Source: Paenibacillus donghaensis
GTDB taxonomy: Bacteria > Bacillota > Bacilli > Paenibacillales > Paenibacillaceae
NCBI RefSeq assembly: GCF_002192415.1
Contig: NZ_CP021780.1
Span: 2,666,001-2,730,000 of the forward strand
Direction: 5' to 3'
Length of the DNA stretch: 64,000 nucleotides
Below the pieces are notes generated by a model. It saw only the letters and a list, made by a program, of their open reading frames with translations, did no database searches and was not told where the DNA came from. Shown piece by piece: positions 26,720-44,163 of the stretch. Both the position numbers and the translations under genes were made by a program. Numbering within the stretch: the first letter of the stretch is position 1; the number at the start of each line of letters is the position of its first letter.

Positions 26720-27547
26720 TTATTTGGTGCTGTTGCGGTAGGCGGAGGGGGAGACTCCGGTTGTTTTTTTGAAATACTTGGAGAAATGGGCCAGCTCCAT
26801 GCCGACCTGCTCGGAGATGTCGGAGATGCTGAAATCCGTCAGGGTCAGCTGGCGCTTCGCCAGCTCCATCCGCTTCAGCTGGACGTAATGCATGGGCGGG
26901 ACGCCGATGAATTTTTTGAAATAAGGAATGAAATAGTTCGGATGGAGGTGAACCAGCTCGGCCAGTTCCTCTACCTCCAGCGGCTGCTTCAGCCGTTGGT
27001 CGATGTACTGAAGCACATGTGCCAGCTTGCCCTGGTCGCTGGTCTGCACGAATTCCTTCATGAAATCGGTATATCCGCCGGACTCCAGACAGAGCGCGAT
27101 CAGATTCAGCAAGGAGGCCTGAATGCGCAGAATCGAGAGCACATCATTATTCTGAAACAGCGCGATCATATCGGTGAAGATGGCTCTGACTGCATCGGGA
27201 TCAGGTGCGTCGCTGATATACAGCTTATTTTCCGAGTGAAATAAAGGCCATTCTCCAATGTCCGCATCGAAATGGCAGTAATAGCGGGTATAGGGATTGT
27301 CCGGGTTCGTCTCCGTCGTTTGCGTGCTGCCGGCAGGCATAATCATCAGCTGTCCCGGCTGTGGATAGTAGCTGACTCCGTTGATAATCACCTTGCCTTC
27401 CCCGCGGTCCAGGAAATAAAGCCGGTTGAAGGAAGGCGTCTCGCGCGAGCGGTTCCATCCGAAATATTTACTGCTAACCTGGGCATGGGTAACCGTCACA
27501 GTCAGATTCTGCAGCAGACGCCCGGTCAGATTGCCTGAGTGATTCAT
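26720..27547 (-). CDS. AraC family transcriptional regulator of the sugar cluster
   Basis: 275 residues. An N-terminal cupin sensor (GEGKVIINGVSYYPQPGQL, PAGSTQT) is followed by a C-terminal AraC double helix-turn-helix with VEELAELVHLHPNYFIPYFKK and HFSKYFKKTTGVSPSAYR. It is divergent from three Gfo/Idh/MocA dehydrogenase genes and an isomerase gene across 161 AT-rich bases, the classic arrangement of a pathway-specific activator. The inducing sugar is unknown. The start ATG 27547 has AAAGGAGCC before it. Confidence 0.9.
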   Translation of the reverse strand: MNHSGNLTGRLLQNLTVTVTHAQVSSKYFGWNRSRETPSFNRLYFLDRGEGKVIINGVSYYPQPGQLMIMPAGSTQTTETNPDNPYTRYYCHFDADIGEWPLFHSENKLYISDAPDPDAVRAIFTDMIALFQNNDVLSILRIQASLLNLIALCLESGGYTDFMKEFVQTSDQGKLAHVLQYIDQRLKQPLEVEELAELVHLHPNYFIPYFKKFIGVPPMHYVQLKRMELAKRQLTLTDFSISDISEQVGMELAHFSKYFKKTTGVSPSAYRNSTK

Positions 27548-34056: not shown

Positions 34057-34158
34057 CAAATGTTTCCGAAGCAGCGGTTTACCTGACACGAATAGGGTAA
34101 TTTATGGCATACAGTGTTGTATCTCTGTTGTTGATAGATGAGAAGGGGAGGCGTTAAT

Positions 34159-35325
34159 TTGAATAAAAAAATAGGTGCACTGCTGGCTGCCGCATTGCTG
34201 CTGCCCGTATTCTTCAGTACACCGGAGTCGGATGCCGCTGCAGCACAGGAGAGGACTGCTCCGCTCCAAGTGGCGGCCACAGCCCAGAGTCCAGCCACTA
34301 ATGGACTGGTGCCGCTGACTGGCGCGATCAATGGCAATCTGCCGATTCATATGTCGATCAAGATTGAGAGCGGCGGGAAACTGACTGGCAGCTATTATTA
34401 CGACAAATACAAAAAGACGATAAGGCTAACAGGCAATGTCAGCGGAAAAATGGCCAATATGTATGAATATGATGCCAAAGGCAAGGAAACCGGACATTTT
34501 CAGGGCTGGTGGATTCCCGGCACCGGCTTCGCCGGGGTGTGGAGCAACCAAGACGGTACCCGCCAGCTGCCGGTGGAAGCCTTGACTGCCTCTGCAGCGG
34601 CCAGTATTAAGGTTCCTACGGCAGCAGAGTGGAGCGGTGAATGGCATAGGGCGAGCAACTCGCCGTTCTACGGATCTTATGTTAAATTCAGCAACGTCAA
34701 GAAGGATAAGCTATCGCTCTCCATGGAGGCATTCGACGGTGCCCATTCCGGAGGATTAGACGAGGAGTCGGCAGTGGTGCGCAAACGGATGGCCGTATAC
34801 AAGGAAGAGAACGGCTCGGTCATCTTTTTCTATCTGCTTGGCAGCAAGTTGTATGTAACCAGTCCTACTCCGGTGTATTCTGCCGGCGCTAATGTGACCT
34901 ACAGCGGGGAGTATTCCAAGGGTCCATTCAAAGAGGTTAACTACACGCTGAAGGACACAGGCGTCTTCAAAACGGCAGCCGAAGACAAGGCATTCCGCAA
35001 AGTTGTATGGAGTGATTACGATCTGTTCTTAAACAGCATGCAACTGCTGGATAAGCCGAAGGATCTGGACGGTCTGGGCGCAGAGGTTGTCCAGGGCGGC
35101 GTGCGGGGACTCTTTACGCTTACGGAAGCCATCATCATGCATGACAAGAAAGGCCACTATTGGGCAGCCGTGTTGGACACGGATGAGGAGAACAGCATCG
35201 AAGAAATCGATATTGCCATCGTCCGATTCTACACCAACGTACCGAATACCACCGAGCTGCCGAAGACGATTGCAGACTGGACCGAAGCTTTTCCCGATTA
35301 CGAGGTTGTATTCATGAATCCATAG
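34159..35325 (+). CDS. Exported protein of unknown function
   Basis: 388 residues from TTG 34159, which has AAGGGGAGG seven bases ahead; an in-frame ATG at 34138 lies before that site. The signal peptide is MNKKIGALLAAALLLPVFF, with cleavage probably in the alanine run near residue 30. The first half has IHMSIKIESGGKLTGSYYYD and GWWIPGTGFAGVWSN, a pattern of beta strands with repeated glycine-tyrosine turns like a lipocalin-like or 'META'-type barrel. I do not recognise a named family. Monocistronic, with a strong terminator. Confidence 0.8.
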   Translation: MNKKIGALLAAALLLPVFFSTPESDAAAAQERTAPLQVAATAQSPATNGLVPLTGAINGNLPIHMSIKIESGGKLTGSYYYDKYKKTIRLTGNVSGKMANMYEYDAKGKETGHFQGWWIPGTGFAGVWSNQDGTRQLPVEALTASAAASIKVPTAAEWSGEWHRASNSPFYGSYVKFSNVKKDKLSLSMEAFDGAHSGGLDEESAVVRKRMAVYKEENGSVIFFYLLGSKLYVTSPTPVYSAGANVTYSGEYSKGPFKEVNYTLKDTGVFKTAAEDKAFRKVVWSDYDLFLNSMQLLDKPKDLDGLGAEVVQGGVRGLFTLTEAIIMHDKKGHYWAAVLDTDEENSIEEIDIAIVRFYTNVPNTTELPKTIADWTEAFPDYEVVFMNP

Positions 35326-36429: not shown

Positions 36430-36484
36430 GCAAATTTAGTCGGAAACACCTAACCCATTCTTTGGTGGGGTGTTTTGATTAAAG

Positions 36485-36676
36485 GCTAATGGTGTCACAA
36501 AAGAAGAAATAGTCGCTTTTGGTGATAACTTCAATGATATAGATATGCTTCGCTTTGCAGGGTTAGGGGTGGCTATGGATAATGCTCCTGATGAAGTCAA
36601 ATTAGCTGCGGATATAGTAACGTTATCTAATGACGAAGATGGATTGAAAGTAGTTCTAGAAAAGTACTGTTACTGA
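36485..36676 (+). pseudogene. C-terminal remnant of a Cof-type HAD phosphatase
   Basis: In one frame to TGA 36674-36676 the sequence reads EEIVAFGDNFNDIDMLRFAG, then GVAMDNAPDEVKLAADIVT. This is the motif IV region and C-terminus of HAD-IIB (Cof) phosphatases. The first three quarters of the gene, including the nucleophile motif, are absent and no start exists. It is AT-rich like the preceding hydrolase gene. Confidence 0.85.
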
Positions 36677-36730
36677 GGATGTGATTTTTCATCGGTTTAT
36701 GAGGGAACGGTTTGAGTTTAGAGCATACAT

Positions 36731-36770
36731 AAAATGACCCGCCGGGCTAATGCCTGACGGGTCATTTTAT
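36731..36770 (+). terminator. Terminator-like hairpin
   Basis: AAAATGACCCGYC.GGC pairs with GCC.GACGGGTCATTTT around CTAAT, with A and T runs on the two sides. Confidence 0.85.
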
Positions 36771-36870
36771 ATTATAAACTCCGTAAACACTGGATTCCGC
36801 AACAAGCCAGTTTTGTATCCAACCCCCCTCAATTCGATTCCTATTTACCCAAGCACAGATAAAAATCCCA

Positions 36871-36915
36871 CATATTCTAAGATGTATTCAATTATAAGGG
36901 AGGGATGAACGAATG
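36871..36915 (+). promoter_or_regulatory. Sporulation-type -10 box before the first YjcZ-like gene
   Basis: CATATTCTA (36871-36879) fits the CATANNNTA -10 element of mother-cell sigma factors E/K. The following 36 bases down to the ATG are repeated before the second gene (CATATTCTAA at 37032). A matching -35 (AC at 36855) is only 14 bases away, shorter than usual. Confidence 0.5.
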
Positions 36916-37041
36916 AGTGGAGTTGTTGGAGGATATGGGTGTGAACATGAAAAAAAAGTTATTAGTCCTTTTACGTCGACAGGTGCAATCTTGGTACTCT
37001 TTATCTTGTTAGTTATTATCTTGAAAGCCTGCATATTCTAA
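36913..37041 (+). CDS. YjcZ family small spore-associated membrane protein, copy 1
   Basis: 42 residues: a Gly/Tyr-rich start (VVGGYGC), a short polar stretch and one hydrophobic span ending in ILVLFILLVIILKACIF. This layout is that of the YjcZ family of tiny membrane proteins made during sporulation in Bacillaceae. GGGAGGG lies 8 bases before the ATG. Compared with copy 2 it has a nine-residue insertion after the Gly/Tyr part (CEHEKKVIS). It is too short for most gene callers. Confidence 0.8.
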   Translation: MSGVVGGYGCEHEKKVISPFTSTGAILVLFILLVIILKACIF

Positions 37042-37071
37042 ATTTTATTCAATTACAAAGGAGAGATTATA

Positions 37072-37173
37072 ATGGGTGAATTAGCTGGGGGATATGGTGG
37101 CTTTACTTCTACCACTGCAATATTGGTTCTGTTTATCTTGTTGGTAATCATCTCTAAGACTTTCTTGATCTAA
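37072..37173 (+). CDS. YjcZ family small spore-associated membrane protein, copy 2
   Basis: 33 residues: LAGGYGG, then FTSTTAILVLFILLVIISK. AAAGGAGAG lies before the ATG. The hydrophobic span is almost identical to copy 1 (shared LVLFILLVII), and the upstream 43 bases match those before copy 1, so this is a tandem duplication including the control region. The stop codon of copy 1 lies within the CATATTCTA box of copy 2. A terminator follows. Confidence 0.82.
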   Translation: MGELAGGYGGFTSTTAILVLFILLVIISKTFLI

Positions 37174-37190
37174 TTGGCTATACCATATCA

Positions 37191-37217
37191 CCCGCCAGTA
37201 GATACTGGCGGGTTTTA
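37191..37217 (+). terminator. Terminator of the YjcZ-like pair
   Basis: CCCGCCAG-TAGATA-CTGGCGGG followed by TTTTAT. A second smaller hairpin (CCCCG/CGGGG with six T) lies at 37237-37276. Confidence 0.88.
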
Positions 37218-37299
37218 TATGTACATAATCAAAGAGGTACCCCGTCAACCTTAACAGGAAAGCGGGGCTTTTTTATGCCTGGTAACTCGATAATCCTAT

Positions 37300-37308
37300 T
37301 GGTATAAT
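37300..37308 (+). promoter_or_regulatory. Extended -10 promoter ahead of the Jet/Mks operon
   Basis: TGGTATAAT is a perfect TATAAT (37303-37308) with the TG extension. The -35 region (TGGTAA at 17 bases) is poor, as is common for extended -10 promoters. Transcription would start near 37315. Confidence 0.55.
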
Positions 37309-37360
37309 AGAAACATATATTCGCGCTTGTTGCTGGACTCATAAGTATAGTGGATTTCTT

Positions 37361-37403
37361 AACCCATATTTGTCCCTTCATGGGGCAGATGTGGGTTTTA
37401 TTT
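37361..37403 (+). terminator. Leader terminator/attenuator before the Jet/Mks operon
   Basis: AACCCATATTTGTCCC pairs over 16 positions (with G-U pairs) with GGGGCAGATGTGGGTT around TTCAT, followed by TTATTT. It lies after the -10 box and ends 22 bases before the start codon of the first gene, so read-through is needed for expression. Confidence 0.65.
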
Positions 37404-37424
37404 GGCTCTGGGGGTGGTAGAACA

Positions 37425-38930
37425 ATGAACTGGTCGGACTTTGGTGAACGGAATAAACGGCTGAACCCGCTGTGGAATCTGGGGGCAGGCATGAACCTGG
37501 GCGAGCTTCAGCCGTATAAAGAAATGGTGGCGCTCAGCATTCTGCTGCAGGTGTATTATCTGGAGCTGGATTCCAGCGAAGACAGATCTAAGGAGGATCT
37601 GGTCTCACTGGCCTGGAACGCGCTTAACCGCTTTGGCATCAGCAGTCTGGGCTCGGCGGAGTCCGTGGAGCGGTTGGTGGACGGTCTGCTGTGGAGCGGG
37701 AATGGCGGCGATTTCGAATCGTATTATTATGACGATGCAACCCGGCAGATGGAGATTCAGAAGTACAAATTCTTCGCTGTGGATGAGGATGCCACACGCA
37801 CCAGCTGGGAGGAGACCGGCAAGACGGTCTACAGGCTCTCGGAATATGCGATGGAGCTGATCTTCATGAGTCATGAGATTATCGAAGAGTTCCAGATCAG
37901 CATCAAGCTGCTGGAGATCCAGATGCATATCAAGTATGGAAGGGTGACGCGAGCGCTGCAGGATGTCAATGAACTGATTTCACGGGTCCGCAAAATGATT
38001 CAGCAGCAGCAGGAATACCGCAATGCGCTGCGCCGCAATCCGAAGCATATCTTCAGCGAATATGGGGTGAACCGCCATCAGCGGCTCGAGGAAATCCAGC
38101 TGCAGTTCGACGCGGAGCGCAAGCATTTCGATACGATCCACCGGTCGCTGGCCCGGCTGGCCAACGACGAGAAGGATGTGATCGATTTCAACGAGCTGCG
38201 GATGCTCTCGGAACGGGTGGAGCTGTCGCGGCGGGTGCATGATGAGCTGGCGGGTGTGGTGCTGAGTATTTTTGAAGCGGAAACGAATCTGCGGCTGAAC
38301 TTCCCGGAGTTGTTCTGGGGAGCCTCCGGCTTCAACTTCCGCACACATGTGTGGGAGGAATGGGTCAAGGAGACGGGCTTGCCGGGCGGTGACAGCATGG
38401 AGCTGCTGCTGGAAGGTCTATTCTCTCCTCATCAGGATTTCGTGTACCCGCTGGCCTGGGCCTGGGAAGAACAGGATGTCGGCTTCCAGCCGCAACTGCC
38501 TGAAGACCAAATGGACGACCATGGAGAAGATCCGGGGATGCCTTACAGCCCGCAGGAGATTCCGTGGAACGAGGTGACCGCCTTGTGGGCACCGGTGTTT
38601 ACAGTGCTGGCCGAGCAGGGCAGCTTCACGCTTGCGGCGGATGCCTTCTCGCCGGAGACACAGCAGCAGTGGACGGCGACGCCGGATGCAGTCGATCTGT
38701 GGGTGCAATTGTTCCATGCGGAAATCACGGTGGAGGATACCGCCGAGGAGAACGGACAAGGGCAGGATGAGTGCAGACGGCTGCTGGCACAGCTGCTGGC
38801 CCATGACCCTTCGCTTGCGGTGCTGCGCGGACGGAAGCTGCGAACCACCATTGAGGCAGGTAGTACAGAGCCGGTCCGCTGGCCCGGCCTGGAGATCAGC
38901 CCTTATACCCTAACGATTACGGAGAGGTGA
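37425..38930 (+). CDS. Kleisin-like subunit of a Wadjet/Mks system (JetA/MksF-like)
   Basis: 501 residues from ATG 37425, preceded by GGGGGTGG; the open frame extends to 37350 but that part is the leader hairpin. It is acidic, mostly helical, with a winged-helix-like N-terminal part, a long helical stretch around residues 150-300 and no enzymatic motif. The identification rests on position and size: it is the first of three tightly packed genes (9-base gap, then 14-base overlap) ending in an SMC-like ATPase. This is the order kleisin-kite-SMC of JetABC and MksFEB. Kleisins bridge the SMC heads. It differs from the type I JetA I know best, so the subtype is uncertain. Confidence 0.65.
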   Translation: MNWSDFGERNKRLNPLWNLGAGMNLGELQPYKEMVALSILLQVYYLELDSSEDRSKEDLVSLAWNALNRFGISSLGSAESVERLVDGLLWSGNGGDFESYYYDDATRQMEIQKYKFFAVDEDATRTSWEETGKTVYRLSEYAMELIFMSHEIIEEFQISIKLLEIQMHIKYGRVTRALQDVNELISRVRKMIQQQQEYRNALRRNPKHIFSEYGVNRHQRLEEIQLQFDAERKHFDTIHRSLARLANDEKDVIDFNELRMLSERVELSRRVHDELAGVVLSIFEAETNLRLNFPELFWGASGFNFRTHVWEEWVKETGLPGGDSMELLLEGLFSPHQDFVYPLAWAWEEQDVGFQPQLPEDQMDDHGEDPGMPYSPQEIPWNEVTALWAPVFTVLAEQGSFTLAADAFSPETQQQWTATPDAVDLWVQLFHAEITVEDTAEENGQGQDECRRLLAQLLAHDPSLAVLRGRKLRTTIEAGSTEPVRWPGLEISPYTLTITER

Positions 38931-38939
38931 GAAGACAAC

Positions 38940-39698
38940 ATGAGTTATTCTTTAGAGCAATTACAGCAGGCTTCGAAGCTGTTCTTTGACCTGCTGCGCC
39001 GCAAAGTCATCTCCCTGAATGATCCCGCAGCCGCCGAATGCCTGCAGGATGCGGGAGCCTATGATGCGCTGCAGTATGTGGCCAAGGAAGGCGGCTGCCG
39101 GGTGATGAACTCGGGACAACGGCTGCATCTGCTGGTGAATCCGATCGGTTCGGTGTTCGCCACCAACTTCACGCAGCTGAAGAACAAATATTCGCGCATT
39201 GAACGCAAGGCGCAATTACATACCATTAACGTCATCATTCTGATTTTTCTCGCCGAGATGGACCAGGATGAGAGCCATTTCAAGCCCGGGCAGGACAGTA
39301 TGTCCTATCTGCAGCTGGCTGACCAGGTGTCTGCAGTGCTGCAGGCCTGGTACAACCTCGATGGGGAAGGGCGGTTCAGCAAACAGTGGCAGCTCGACAT
39401 TCAAGCGATGTACAAAGTATGGACCAGCCTCTATATGCAGACCAAAAGCCAGGAGGAGAGCGATCTTCTCTCACGTGGCTCAGGCTCACGGATCGGGCTG
39501 ATCCATGAAGGCATGAAGCTGCTGGAAGAGGAGCATCTGGTCTTTATCTCAGAGCAGGAGAAGCGGATCTTCCCCCGGGATGAGTTGTATGAGAGAATGC
39601 GCTATCTGTACCATGATGTTGACCGCTACAAGGAACTGAAGACCCTGATCGAACAGACTCTGGCAGAGAAAGCAGGTGCAGCGGATGCCCAGAATTGA
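38940..39698 (+). CDS. Kite-like subunit of a Wadjet/Mks system (JetB/MksE-like)
   Basis: 252 residues. Two winged-helix-like halves are suggested: the first with LFFDLLRRKVISLNDPAAAE and a hydrophobic beta wing (GQRLHLLVNPIG), the second with EEHLVFISEQEKRIFPRDEL. The C-terminal helix contains a YHDVDRYKELKTLI segment. These features and its position between the kleisin-like gene and the SMC-like ATPase fit MksE/JetB, which dimerises on the kleisin. GAGGTGAG precedes the ATG. Its 3' end overlaps the ATPase gene by 14 bases, so translation is coupled. Confidence 0.7.
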   Translation: MSYSLEQLQQASKLFFDLLRRKVISLNDPAAAECLQDAGAYDALQYVAKEGGCRVMNSGQRLHLLVNPIGSVFATNFTQLKNKYSRIERKAQLHTINVIILIFLAEMDQDESHFKPGQDSMSYLQLADQVSAVLQAWYNLDGEGRFSKQWQLDIQAMYKVWTSLYMQTKSQEESDLLSRGSGSRIGLIHEGMKLLEEEHLVFISEQEKRIFPRDELYERMRYLYHDVDRYKELKTLIEQTLAEKAGAADAQN

Positions 39699-42600
39699 AC
39701 GGATACGAATTGCAGGTCTGAAATACGAGAAGATGCTGAAGAAATACGACGATATGCTGCTGGACCTGTGCAATGAGGAAGGTCCGGCCAACACGCTCAT
39801 CACACTGATGAACGGCGGCGGGAAGGGTGTACTGCTGCAGGCGATCTTCCAGCTGCTGATGCCTAAGGCTGCCTGGGGCAAGGATAACGAGAACCAGGTC
39901 GAAGCTTTTTTTCATAATCACAAAAAACAACTCAAGCCCTACACCTTCCATGTAGCCATCGAATGGCTGCTGGACCACAGTGAACGGAATGAATACATCA
40001 CAACCGGTATCGCCCTTACGGCGCACCAGTCGCTGGATCAGCAGGAAATCAAGGTTGATTATATGCTGTATACGCTGCTCAATTACGGAGAAGGGGCGGA
40101 GCTGACGATTGCTTCGCTGCCGCTGTATGATCAGGCGGCGGGTGAACCGGCCTCATTTGAAGCTCTACAGCAATTCCTCCGCGAACGACGGGGCGAGGTC
40201 ATAGTCTACGGCAGCAGCGGGTCGGAGCTGCGCAAGTATTACGATTTCCTTGCGGTGCGTGACATCCATATCGGGGAATGGCGGAATATGCGCCGGATCA
40301 ACGGAGAAGAGGGCGGGATCAAAGGCTATTTCAAGAAACATGAAGCCTTCAGCAACCACAATCTGTTCGAGAAGCTGATCATCCCGGAGATTGGCGCTAG
40401 CCTGGGTGACGGGCTGCGCGAGGAGGACCAGTCCCTACAGCAGATGTTTATGGATGTGGCCGTCATTGCCCAGAGACTGCCGATGCTGGAGCAGAGGGAG
40501 CAGGCTTATGCCGAGTTTATCGGCATGGCCAGCCCGCTGCAAGGGCTGGTGGAGCAGGGGGCTGCGGCAGACAGTAGTGTTCAGGCCAGCGAGCTGCACG
40601 GCCGTCAGATCTACTCGGCCATCCAGGCTGAGCTGAAGAATACGGAAACGGGCCGCAGTGAGGCGGCGGAAGAGCTGTCCGGGCAATATGCGGAAGGCAA
40701 GCAGCTGCGATTCGAGTGGGACAATCTGAAATACCTGGGCAGCAGGCAGGAGCATGACCTGAAGGCCGAGGAACTGAAAGGGCTGGGCGATCATCAGGGA
40801 CGGGCGCGTCAGCGGCTGGAGGATTCCCGGCAGAGCGAGAAGCAGCTGGAGGTGGACTTCTATCTGGCTAAGCGGCTGAATTATACCCGGCAAATGGAGC
40901 AATGGCAGAAAGAGATTGCCGCCATTGAAGGCTCGCTGGAGACGCAAGAGCGCCAGCAGGTGATCAACAGCGTGAAGGCGGAGCTGCGAAGCCAGTGGGA
41001 TATTGTGTTTAAGCTATGGCAGCAGACGCTCGCCGGGTTCGGAGCATCCCAGCAGAAGCTGAGAGACGAAGAGCGCGGGCTGCGCAAGAGCAGGGAGGAA
41101 TTGCTGCTGGAGCTGGGTGGCATCCAGACCGAAATTCCGAAGCTTACAGCGGCGATTCGCCAGTTCAGCGAAGACACCGGAGCCTTTGCCGCCCTGCATG
41201 GACAGGAGGCTGCCCATGCGCCTGATCCGGCGCTGCAGCGTACACTGAATGAGATCAAGAGCACCAAGGAGGAACTGTCGAGGCTGGAGGAGGACCGCAA
41301 GCAGACGGAGGGTGGCAAGCTGTCACTGCATACCTCACACACCCGGCTCACGGAGCAGTTGGCAGCGCTCGAACGCGAGGCGGACGACCTTACTGCGCTG
41401 CTGGAAACCCGCACAGCTGCCGAATCCCAGCTCTGGTCGCAGCTGGTTGTGCTGCTGGAGCTGTATGAGGAGCATCACCGCCTTGGCGCATCGGCCCTGT
41501 TCGAGCTGAAGGATGCCATCGAAGCGCGTTTCATTCAGAGACTGGAGCAAGCAGAGCAGCAGAACAAGCGCTGCCGCAGAGACTATTACAACCAGCTGCT
41601 GGATGTGGAGCTGCAGCATGAGCCGTATTGGCTGCCCAATGGTGATATCCTGACCGTGAAGGATAAGCTGGACGCGCTGAAGATTCATTCCATCGCCGGC
41701 AGCTCTTATCTGAACGACCTGCCACTCGGCCAGCGGAGAGAGGAGCTGGAGCGGCAGCCGCTGCTGCCTTACGGCCTGATTGTCACCCGGCGGGAAGCTG
41801 CCAAGATTCAGCCAGGCCTGCTGGCCGAACTGCTGCTGAAATCGGCGGTACCGGTATTTGTGCGTGAAGAGATGATCAGCGCGGGGCAAGCCGCTTACAC
41901 GCTATTGGAGCATCAAGGCCTGCAGATGGTGATTCAGCCCGAGCAGTTTCTGAAGTGGAGAGACGGGATTCAAGCACAGCTCAAAGAACAGGAGCAGACG
42001 CTGAAGGACGCTGAAGCTTACCATTCCAGACTGAGAACGGCGCAGCTGGCCTACGCCCAGCTGTTCCAGACTGAGCATTCCCACAGCCTGACGGCTAAGC
42101 GGAAGCTGTTGGAAGAGCGGCACCGGGAACTGCTTAAAGCCCTGGAGCAATTGAATACGCAGCTGCAAGGCAATGAGACGGCCCTTTTCGCAATCCAGCG
42201 GGCAATTACAGACGGTGGCGTACGGAGAACGGAGCTGGAGCAGCGGGAGACCGCGCTGCGAGGCTGGACCGAACGTCTGCGCAAGCAAGCGTCCGATTAC
42301 AAGGACAAGCAGAAACTGGTAGAGCATAAGGCACAGCTGGAGAAGGACAGCCTGGTGAAGGAGCAGCAGCTGGCACACTTGAAGACACAGCTGGACAGCA
42401 TGGGCAGCGAACGGGAACAATGGATGGGCGAAGCCAGATTCACGCTGTTTCCGAAGCTGCAGAGCTGGTTCCCGGAGATTGTTTTTCCGGTGGAGGATAC
42501 TTCGGCTCTGCAGGAGGCGGAGACTGTAAACCCCGCAGAGCAGGATGTACTGCTGCAGCTGCTTAGCCGTGTGGAAGGACTGCAGCAATCGCTCACCCGC

Positions 42601-44163
42601 AATGAGCTGGAGATCCGCACCAGGCAGGCGGGCATCAGAACGGCAACGCAGCAGGTGACGGAGCTGGAAGTCAGCCTCACACAGGTGGACCGTGACTGGG
42701 CGCAGCAGAAGCTGCCCGAAGGCTCGCCGGAATCGATCCAGGCGGCAAGAACACGCCAGAAAGCAGACACGCTGATGCTGGATGAGGACTACCAGCAGCT
42801 TCACGATGCGTATATCCGCTGCGAAACGGAAGTGGACCATCTGCTGAAGAACTTGCGCAAGCTGGAGAAATCAATCCAGGATACGCATGAGCGCGCGGCA
42901 GAATTGTGGCTTGCGCCGCTGGAGGAGAAGCAGGAGGAGCTGCGCGAACGGACGGCCGAGAATGAGCAGCGGATTCAGCGCTGCAAGCAGACGCTGGAGC
43001 GGATCGATCTGCTGCTGCAGATACTGAACAATCAGCGGACCATTATGAATGCGCAGATGGAGGTGCCCGTGCTGCTGAAAGAGCTGCCGGAGGAGCTGCT
43101 GTTAAGCGTCCGGGAGAGCTGTCAGGCGCTGGTCGCGGACTGGCTGCAAGCCCTTAAGGAGAGCCGGGCTGCGCGGGCGGAGTTATCCCGCAAGGTGAAG
43201 GAAGAGAAACATGAATTAAGCGGCAAGCTGTCCAAGAGCGGCTGGAACCGTGAGCTGGAAACCAAGATCCAGGAGCGCCTGAACAGCGTGCATTGGGATG
43301 ATTTCGAGGTGGCCCGGCAGGTGCTGGATTCGATGCTGCGCAGCTCGCAGGACCAGATGGAGAGCATCCGCAGCGACAAGGAAGGCATGGAGCTGTCCCG
43401 CAGCATGTGGGTAGGCCGGGCTTCCAAAAGAGTCGTACAGATTCTCGACATCCTGAAGCGGATGGAACGGCGGATGATTATTCATAACGAGAATCAGCAT
43501 GCTTTTCCACTTGTGCGGCTGAATTACAAGAACATCCAGGTGCCAAGGTCCACCGATGAAATCGAACCGCAGGTGACCGATTTCTTCAACCGGACCATCC
43601 ATGAGCTGCTGGACAAATATCCGAAGATGGAGCAGGTGCCCGCACCGGCGTTGAAGGAGATCATCAATGACGGGCGGCTGCTCTATGCAGCCCTGCAGAA
43701 CCGTTTTCCGGTGCTCCAGGTATACAAGCCGGTAACGGAGAACTATTTCCTCTATGCGGCACCTGAGGATTACCACTATTCCGACTGGGAGGTCATCAAC
43801 CGCGGGGCGATGGATGAAGCGGTCGGCAGCGGCGGACAACGCCAGTCCGTGCAGCTTCTGGTGGCGATGATGATTATGACCCACAAGCGGGTCAACCGGG
43901 AGAACAAGGGCTGGACGGTCTTCCTGTACGATAATCCTTTTGGCGAGATGGTCTCCAACAATGTGCTGGACCCCGTCTTCGAAATTTCCAAGGCGCTTAA
44001 ATTCCAGTGGCTGATCGTAACGCCGCCCGAGCTGGTCAAGAATGATGTGAGCCTGCGCTTCGGCGTGTACTGGCAGCTGTATTTCTCAGGTACCAAGGGC
44101 GATATGCTGGAATCCACGCTGGTTAAGGGCGGCCGGAAGCTGACACCTCTGTCATTATTCTGA
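39685..44163 (+). CDS. SMC-like ATPase of a Wadjet/Mks system (JetC/MksB-like)
   Basis: 1492 residues: N-terminal head, long coiled coil (about 270-640 and 750-1290) with a hinge-like globular part near 650-750 (LPLGQRREELERQPLLPYGL), and C-terminal head. The signature is GSGGQRQSVQLL (about 1380). Two motifs are unusual. Walker A is MNGGGKGVLLQ (about 42-52), where the Ser/Thr after Lys is Gly. Walker B is FLYDNPFGE (about 1413), with Asn in place of the catalytic Glu. Relatives of this family often read NGGGKT, and DNPFG may be family-wide. ATG 39685 was chosen over GTG 39676. No JetD/MksG nuclease gene follows. The TPM gene 65 bases downstream has no terminator before it. Confidence 0.8.
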   Translation: MPRIERIRIAGLKYEKMLKKYDDMLLDLCNEEGPANTLITLMNGGGKGVLLQAIFQLLMPKAAWGKDNENQVEAFFHNHKKQLKPYTFHVAIEWLLDHSERNEYITTGIALTAHQSLDQQEIKVDYMLYTLLNYGEGAELTIASLPLYDQAAGEPASFEALQQFLRERRGEVIVYGSSGSELRKYYDFLAVRDIHIGEWRNMRRINGEEGGIKGYFKKHEAFSNHNLFEKLIIPEIGASLGDGLREEDQSLQQMFMDVAVIAQRLPMLEQREQAYAEFIGMASPLQGLVEQGAAADSSVQASELHGRQIYSAIQAELKNTETGRSEAAEELSGQYAEGKQLRFEWDNLKYLGSRQEHDLKAEELKGLGDHQGRARQRLEDSRQSEKQLEVDFYLAKRLNYTRQMEQWQKEIAAIEGSLETQERQQVINSVKAELRSQWDIVFKLWQQTLAGFGASQQKLRDEERGLRKSREELLLELGGIQTEIPKLTAAIRQFSEDTGAFAALHGQEAAHAPDPALQRTLNEIKSTKEELSRLEEDRKQTEGGKLSLHTSHTRLTEQLAALEREADDLTALLETRTAAESQLWSQLVVLLELYEEHHRLGASALFELKDAIEARFIQRLEQAEQQNKRCRRDYYNQLLDVELQHEPYWLPNGDILTVKDKLDALKIHSIAGSSYLNDLPLGQRREELERQPLLPYGLIVTRREAAKIQPGLLAELLLKSAVPVFVREEMISAGQAAYTLLEHQGLQMVIQPEQFLKWRDGIQAQLKEQEQTLKDAEAYHSRLRTAQLAYAQLFQTEHSHSLTAKRKLLEERHRELLKALEQLNTQLQGNETALFAIQRAITDGGVRRTELEQRETALRGWTERLRKQASDYKDKQKLVEHKAQLEKDSLVKEQQLAHLKTQLDSMGSEREQWMGEARFTLFPKLQSWFPEIVFPVEDTSALQEAETVNPAEQDVLLQLLSRVEGLQQSLTRNELEIRTRQAGIRTATQQVTELEVSLTQVDRDWAQQKLPEGSPESIQAARTRQKADTLMLDEDYQQLHDAYIRCETEVDHLLKNLRKLEKSIQDTHERAAELWLAPLEEKQEELRERTAENEQRIQRCKQTLERIDLLLQILNNQRTIMNAQMEVPVLLKELPEELLLSVRESCQALVADWLQALKESRAARAELSRKVKEEKHELSGKLSKSGWNRELETKIQERLNSVHWDDFEVARQVLDSMLRSSQDQMESIRSDKEGMELSRSMWVGRASKRVVQILDILKRMERRMIIHNENQHAFPLVRLNYKNIQVPRSTDEIEPQVTDFFNRTIHELLDKYPKMEQVPAPALKEIINDGRLLYAALQNRFPVLQVYKPVTENYFLYAAPEDYHYSDWEVINRGAMDEAVGSGGQRQSVQLLVAMMIMTHKRVNRENKGWTVFLYDNPFGEMVSNNVLDPVFEISKALKFQWLIVTPPELVKNDVSLRFGVYWQLYFSGTKGDMLESTLVKGGRKLTPLSLF

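Follow-up and report, generated by a model that had tools for sequence, protein, structure and literature searches.

The 64,000-nucleotide stretch of Paenibacillus donghaensis DNA analyzed here (the window) encodes the JetABC proteins of a type III Wadjet system without an adjacent JetD. The finding lies in the missing nuclease and not in the motifs of the ATPase. Comparison of relatives shows that this Paenibacillus clade has deleted or broken jetD on many occasions, and that in the JetD-less groups the JetABC core has stayed intact and under purifying selection. Together, the repeated deletion and the retained core suggest that the motor has a second job worth keeping. The operon is probably a repeatedly disarmed Wadjet, its SMC motor kept for a nuclease-independent and most likely condensin-like chromosome job.

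The type III JetABC operon and its ATPase motifs

As originally predicted, three coupled genes with an SMC-like ATPase last occupy positions 37425–44163, and profile searches with PADLOC assign all three products to type III Wadjet models (E 2e-109 to 0):

37425..38930, + strand: jetA, kleisin-type subunit, type III, 501 codons (PADLOC JetA3 PDLC00565, E 6.7e-219)
38940..39698, + strand: jetB, KITE-type subunit, type III, 252 codons (PADLOC JetB3 PDLC00573, E 2e-109; Pfam DUF6063)
39685..44163, + strand: jetC, SMC-like ATPase, type III, 1492 codons from ATG (PADLOC JetC3 PDLC00584, E 0, 2571 bits)

The kleisin, KITE, and SMC roles are assigned from the PADLOC JetA, JetB, and JetC profiles and the naming used in excerpts of a review (PMC10586767), not from fold, and a phmmer comparison of JetC with PDB sequences (E up to 1) returned no matches. 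The earliest start listed for jetC is a GTG at 39676, giving 1495 codons, but the ATG at 39685 is the better one because the alignments of the majority of relatives begin at residue 3 or 4.

The ATPase motifs of JetC had been read correctly: Walker A is LMNGGGKGVLLQ, with Gly after the Lys, Walker B is VFLYDNPFGEM, with Asn, and the signature, GSGGQRQS, is intact. The further proposal of an undescribed subtype, its unusual ATP chemistry linked to the absence of a nuclease, is not supported, and altered motifs were rejected as the main novelty, both being ordinary among type III JetC. Walker A LMNGGGKG, signature GSGGQ, and Walker B LYDN run through the subfamily, with GKG and DN also present in its JetD-bearing members wherever the relevant JetC end was read. 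Outside the subfamily, all 15 JetD-bearing type III JetC proteins read carry DN, with GKG in 6 and GKT in 9. The motifs in the window are thus those of JetD-bearing type III members. They do pose a biochemical puzzle, namely ATP hydrolysis by type III JetC with a Walker B Asn, which in the branch of the window includes the Gly following the Walker A Lys. In contrast to the DN found here, MukBEF has a catalytic Glu, and passages of PMC7617805 term its E1407Q mutant hydrolysis-deficient and report that it fails to entrap DNA.

The deletion of jetD

The predicted lack of a nuclease gene on either side was borne out by tblastn, which found no JetD across positions 27001–50000 of the window. Nor did a subfamily JetD profile match anywhere in the 8.54 Mb genome (E up to 0.001), so that no JetD of the subfamily co-occurs with the operon at a distance. 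Pfam JetD_C alone detects these proteins poorly, scoring 22–28 bits at jetABC loci and missing three intact copies there (G028, G045, and G089) by comparison with the subfamily profile. The genome does encode a type I JetD, inside a separate type I Wadjet operon (JetABCD) ~1.1 Mb away, and remote nucleases are possible. That this JetD or an unrecognized nuclease substitutes in trans is, however, scarcely probable: besides the empty subfamily search, the type I JetC is broken into two frames, and a JetD-like match elsewhere (Pfam JetD_C or profile) occurs in just 4 of the 38 genomes without an intact local JetD (G000, G038, G080, and G093). A replacement among the neighbors was likewise rejected, as Pfam found no nuclease family in the 8 flanking proteins scanned. 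Seven matched HAD hydrolase, acetyltransferase, aldo/keto reductase, tRNA synthetase, TPM, phosphodiester glycosidase, and alpha/beta hydrolase families; the eighth (34138–35325) matched no Pfam family.

The operon is present in 51 of 100 sampled genomes of the genus, counting that of the window, and of these loci 13 have an intact JetD, 2 an interrupted one, and 36, the window among them, have lost it by deletion. Where present, jetD lies directly upstream of JetA. A JetD match also precedes the core in all 15 outgroup loci read, 14 of them from other Paenibacillaceae genera and one from G041 (of 18 other-genus genomes with a JetC match, 4 in which it was partial or weak were left out: G154, G162, G214, and G283), and it adjoins JetA in the 13 with a JetA recognized by tblastn, which excludes L157 and L160. 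In every one of the 36 JetD-deleted loci a leader hairpin is fused to JetA and the jetA start is kept. In the window, the region upstream of jetA contains the following features:

37300..37308, + strand: extended -10 promoter-like TGGTATAAT, then the conserved element ATAGAAACATATATTC, recognized by conservation
37361..37397, + strand: leader hairpin, intrinsic-terminator-like (terminator scan, 16 pairs and a T-rich tail)
37398..37424, + strand: site of the deleted jetD, with the hairpin abutting the jetA ribosome-binding site (comparison with JetD-bearing relatives)

The conserved element, with up to 4 mismatches allowed, precedes the operon in 49 of 51 loci, all but L115 and L116. Its distance to JetA is 122 bp in the window and 1.16–1.55 kb in 12 of the 13 JetD-bearing loci; similarly, the hairpin 3′ arm through the jetA ATG measures 40 nt in the window, where JetD-bearing relatives have ~1.1 kb of jetD. 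By this comparison, the absence of JetD in the window is a derived state, reached by deletion in place. A standard -35/-10 scan gave no site, and the promoter call therefore rests on conservation and on TGGTATAAT, which we take to resemble the extended -10 consensus. The hairpin is a possible attenuator: the RNA fold of 37340–37424 has a z-score of -3.57, with none of 200 shuffles equally good, and the outer stem is conserved over 16 aligned leaders (of 49 extracted), in which covariation is weak (2 of 8 pairs). Rfam gave a sub-threshold match alone on 37100–37600, located upstream of the promoter.

Reading of the 36 sequences distinguishes 18–22 deletion junctions, a count that may be too high if a single deletion eroded secondarily. 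On the JetABC tree, loss-only counting requires 24 events when the tree is binary, 20 with branches below 0.9 collapsed, and 15 when interrupted copies and remnants are scored as present; with gains permitted there are 13 changes of JetD state. The tree leaves out L122 and takes for the JetB of L120 the piece after its in-frame stop only, as do the dN/dS values; for L075, whose JetC is incomplete at the end of its stretch, the L048 copy was substituted, the two being judged one contig from their equal length (444371) and identical JetD. The GyrB tree covers the 95 of 100 genomes with an above-cut-off GyrB match (not G041, G043, G052, G062, and G089).

JetD presence has no phylogenetic signal (the 13 changes compare with a shuffled mean of 12.5), and one JetD, with a dS exceeding that of its JetABC, appears to have been exchanged by recombination; some regains are therefore possible. 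These two observations, and the placement of group F, four loci with a common deletion junction, near JetD-bearing relatives would also fit a history in which JetD was never ancestral and an optional module was gained repeatedly. Such a history is scarcely credible, as it runs against the upstream JetD match in every outgroup locus read, the final jetD codons or larger remnants that persist in many JetD-less loci, and JetD branches that mostly group like the JetABC branches.

Direct repeats between the two ribosome-binding sites were considered as a driver of the deletion and rejected, since the shared words are just 5–8 bases long and such words are reached by at least 14% of shuffles in 10 of 11 valid JetD-bearing loci; L083, with an 8-base word reached by 3% of shuffles, is the exception. 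Of the 13 JetD-bearing loci entered, 12 gave leader matches, L115 giving none, and the match of L119 fell inside jetD.

Constraint on JetABC without JetD

Full-length JetABC is encoded at 36 of the 38 loci that lack an intact JetD and at 11 of the 13 that have one, so that broken copies are no commoner without JetD (2/38) than with it (2/13). The dN/dS of JetABC is 0.058–0.111 across 42 pairs without JetD, matching the low values of the 4 JetD-bearing pairs (0.078–0.108), and 0.058–0.101 inside groups sharing a junction, where dS reaches 0.59 (L122, L123, and L124 are outside the calculation). The retained JetD is also constrained (0.17–0.25, 9 pairs). Common junctions suggest that some deletions predate the divergence of the species that carry them. 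Locally relaxed constraint in JetA, JetB, or JetC was sought and rejected: no outlying segment appeared between 12 JetD-bearing and 34 JetD-less sequences (L116, L121, L122, L123, and L124 omitted), and mean variability was slightly lower in the JetD-less set.

JetABC does evolve faster in the window lineage than in its JetD-bearing sister, L075, with a dN to five outside loci of 0.216–0.225 against 0.153–0.178; by GyrB, the window lineage lies closer than L075 to three outside genomes. Pairwise dN/dS is 0.134–0.135 between the window and L086 or L088 and 0.076 between L075 and L086, at a dS of 1.6–2.3 that is too saturated to trust. This faster amino-acid change and the two broken copies without intact JetD are what a decaying relic would predict, in which jetD was lost first and jetABC persists by inertia. 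The low dN/dS without JetD, the apparent age of the shared junctions, and the frequency of broken copies with JetD leave this explanation very unlikely and strongly disfavored.

JetABC occurs in all 32 genomes of clade X, 7 of which have an intact JetD, and is missing from 3 of 16 clade Y and 38 of 39 clade Z genomes, which means that members of the genus can live without it.

Possible functions and relation to other SMC complexes

The original prediction had offered a condensin-like, noncleaving complex as one option, and that part of it is our best reading. Under it, jetD would have been deleted in place, leaving behind the promoter-like element, the leader hairpin, and the jetA start; JetABC would still load on DNA and use ATP to extrude or bridge it without cutting; and the retained job would be chromosome organization or segregation alongside the ordinary Smc–ScpAB (both Smc and ScpA are encoded in the genome), like that of MksBEF and MukBEF, the latter having a known chromosome role. 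JetD would then be a costly, optional weapon, shed repeatedly. More tentatively, the loci might show a bacterial immune SMC complex turning into a housekeeping motor, a transition captured repeatedly and in parallel: a chromosome job acquired by JetABC would free JetD for loss, as has happened in most lineages, while promoter-like element, leader, and GKG/DN ATPase are preserved. Any nuclease-free job preserving the core fits the same data as a chromosome role.

One such job would be to act on plasmids, with JetD-less JetABC trapping, compacting, or silencing small circular molecules instead of cleaving them, on the model of Smc5/6. The sensor core has no clear shift in constraint relative to JetD-bearing loci, a defense role would account for the patchy presence across the genus, and passages of PMC7617805 describe Smc5/6 as an SMC complex that silences transcription of some viral genomes, a possible working model, although Smc5/6 is eukaryotic and the likeness an analogy only. 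We consider this unlikely, as turnover is expected of a defense locus whereas all 32 clade X genomes have kept JetABC, and no sequence feature points to plasmids in particular.

Compared with type III Wadjet systems (JetABCD), the operon shares the JetA3, JetB3, and JetC3 profiles, the Walker B DN, and, in relatives, the upstream JetD; it differs in having no JetD itself, JetD being not intact in 38 of the 51 subfamily loci. A nuclease-free kleisin, KITE, and SMC set maintained by selection, as judged from composition and the JetD-less dN/dS, resembles MksBEF and MukBEF. According to excerpts of PMC7617805, MukBEF of Escherichia coli is a Wadjet-group SMC complex without MksG/JetD, like the complex in the window, and several other members are likewise; the loss described here differs in varying between close species. 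The excerpts of PMC10586767 state that MksBEF of Pseudomonas aeruginosa likely arose via JetD loss and contributes to chromosome organization, present Wadjet as the origin of MukBEF as a speculation, and note that type I systems have been the subject of most work so far. In contrast to MksBEF, the loss in this clade is repeated and leaves scars, and the likeness drawn here is one of composition, with a chromosome role putative. Wherever Wadjet is called from JetABC profiles alone, the operon may lack plasmid-cutting activity. The origin of MksBEF is, moreover, an inferred past event, whereas here close species differ in jetD at one locus, with scars kept, making the step directly comparable in matched JetD-bearing and JetD-less strains.

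An operon retaining JetABC and missing JetD

The window holds an operon of three genes, and the predicted SMC-type three-gene operon was confirmed as JetA3, JetB3 and JetC3 by PADLOC profile search, with a type III Wadjet protein as the top match for each product:

jetA, 37425-38930: PADLOC JetA3 (PDLC00565), E 6.7e-219
jetB, 38940-39698: PADLOC JetB3 (PDLC00573), E 2e-109; Pfam DUF6063
jetC, ending at 44163: PADLOC JetC3 (PDLC00584), 2571 bits

JetC returned no match among PDB sequences at E up to 1, and related JetC proteins in 23 named loci came from Paenibacillus (22) and Bacillus (one). The original observation that no nuclease gene flanks the operon also held, and the host genome, a single contig of 8.54 Mb, gave no match to a profile of subfamily JetD. 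Because this nuclease was not found we do not classify the operon as Wadjet proper but as a derivative of the type III system that has no nuclease.

Of the 100 sampled genomes of the genus, 51 (this one included) carry a JetC of the same subfamily, and the regions around the other 50 loci were fetched for comparison with the window. One further genome, G041, has a distant JetC (22% identity) in a type III operon with JetD (L055:7238-11706), where the 3′ part of jetC is broken so that the protein lies in two reading frames. PADLOC JetD3 (PDLC00591) is matched by three subfamily JetD proteins and by those of G041 and locus L148. The JetD profile, run over the 100 genomes, was built from 15 aligned proteins in which the acidic residues E214, D272, and D274 are invariant; we take these to be Toprim residues. 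It found intact JetD at 13 loci, interrupted JetD at two, and at four others remnants ranging from 21 to about 180 residues, while tblastn alone detected short remnants at three additional loci. In G083, where jetABC is full length, jetD is broken by a 488-aa gene (L116:10473-11939), presumably an IS66-type transposase; in G092 it is interrupted by frameshifts and stops. In JetD-bearing subfamily loci 0 to 7 bases separate the end of jetD from the start of jetA, and in other genera a JetD match lies upstream of the core at 14/14 loci, with JetA recognized in between at 12. Judged from these comparisons, jetD was once present at the locus and was then deleted.

Recurrent deletion and the conserved leader

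JetD groupings mostly match those of JetABC, but between L103 and three relatives JetD dS is 0.63-0.74 versus 0.19-0.24 for JetABC, which suggests that the L103 jetD is an exchanged allele. Because this mismatch makes some regain of jetD via recombination possible, loss counts on a protein tree of JetABC, built from 56 sequences and 2248 columns, are upper-side estimates: loss-only parsimony gives 24 losses, 20 when branches under 0.9 support are collapsed, and 15 when interrupted copies and remnants are scored as JetD present. With gains permitted there are 13 changes, and JetD presence carries no phylogenetic signal on this tree (shuffled mean 12.5).

By our count deletion junctions fall into 22 types, or 18 with similar ones merged, and among loci collected through jetC alone every deletion spares the leader hairpin and jetA. 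In the 36 jetD-deleted loci, 40 to 577 bases (40 in the window) run from the hairpin's 3′ arm to the end of the jetA start codon. Many retain the last jetD codons (NYEVMARLA), which seem to double as the ribosome-binding site of jetA. The promoter-like element TATAATAGAAACATATATTC is conserved: it was found in 49/51 loci, lying 1.16 to 1.55 kb upstream of jetA in 12 of the 13 JetD-bearing loci and 85 to 271 bases upstream in 33/36 JetD-less loci; the outliers among the latter are L101 (650 bases), L114 (423), and L122 (515, from a misplaced start). In the window, this element and the terminator-like hairpin occupy 37300-37397, a leader kept with or without jetD that could possibly mediate transcription attenuation of a defence operon. 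Between an alpha/beta hydrolase gene and the operon (36484-37171) lie a stretch similar to the end of an HAD hydrolase and a pair of small open frames with a YjcZ-like look.

ATPase motifs and constraint on the core

The altered ATPase motifs were present as originally described but are not unusual. LMNGGGKGVLLQ, GSGGQRQSVQLL, and LYDNPFGEMVSNN are almost invariant in subfamily JetC, both with and without JetD. Four loci with one JetC end cut or split entered this reading in part: for L075 and L122 it covered the 5′ end, for L123 and L124 the 3′ one. The other end of L075 and L124 was taken from L048 and L050, respectively, judged by length to be the same contigs. Beyond the subfamily, we compared 15 type III loci that each have a JetD match, namely the one in G041 plus 14 found in other genera; all six of their JetC proteins checked by profile are JetC3. 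Walker B DN is found in 15/15, and the residue after the Walker A Lys is Gly in six (L055, L148-L152) and Thr in nine (L153-L161). The GKG and DN motifs of the window JetC are ordinary for the type III family, and since they co-occur with JetD they do not account for its loss. For an unusual Walker A there is a loose parallel in MksB of Pseudomonas aeruginosa PA14, said in PMC10123090 to be seemingly without this motif.

Substitution rates indicate that the JetABC core is maintained by selection in JetD-less loci. JetABC dN/dS is 0.058-0.111 (median 0.075) in 42 JetD-less pairs of dS 0.05-0.75, 0.078-0.108 in four pairs with JetD, and 0.065-0.110 in 28 mixed pairs. Within groups sharing one junction, which probably reflects one deletion event, the ratio spans 0.058-0.101, with dS reaching 0.59. 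Full-length JetABC is found in 36/38 loci without intact JetD versus 11/13 with it; L122 (whose assembly is fragmentary), L123, L120, and L124 are the exceptions. Counting against this reading, constraint may be relaxed or altered in the window lineage: JetABC dN to five outside loci is 0.216-0.225 versus 0.153-0.178 for its JetD-bearing sister, L075, whereas GyrB is not faster, its distances to three outside genomes being shorter than those of L075. Pairwise dN/dS of the window operon (0.070 to L075, 0.134-0.135 to L086 and L088) is not trustworthy, because dS is near or past saturation (1.6-2.8 or not computable).

Distribution and proposed role

Across the 95 genomes of a GyrB tree, JetABC is present in 32/32 genomes of clade X (intact JetD in seven), 13/16 of clade Y (intact JetD in three; the three absences form one nested group), and 1/39 of clade Z. 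The last, G060 (L115), carries a JetABCD operon that was probably acquired horizontally, since its JetABC is closest to that of clade Y genomes. JetABC distances track GyrB distances (r 0.72, or 0.83 when G060 is left out; Mantel p 0.001), which fits descent that was mostly vertical.

According to the review PMC10586767, whose account of Wadjet is mostly of type I, JetABC detects circular DNA, probably via loop extrusion, and JetD cleaves it. A core without JetD could only move or hold DNA. As the genome encodes its own Smc and ScpA, JetABC would be an additional SMC complex beside them, and it probably works like MksBEF. MukBEF likewise has no nuclease, nor do several other Wadjet-group members (PMC7617805), so JetD-less operons as a kind are already known. 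Neither repeated in-place deletion of jetD within one genus nor this Paenibacillus operon turned up in a literature search that covered few subscription journals or preprints, or in passages from PMC10586767, PMC12287153, PMC10123090, and PMC7617805 (operon tables aside).

The same genome also has a type I Wadjet operon, JetABCD1 (L259:6519-13253; C1 3804518-3811252), whose JetC is split over two overlapping frames of 200 and 969 residues and, unlike that of the window, has canonical Walker A (NASGKST) and Walker B (LFDEAFS) motifs. Two open frames adjoining it are presumably transposase pieces.
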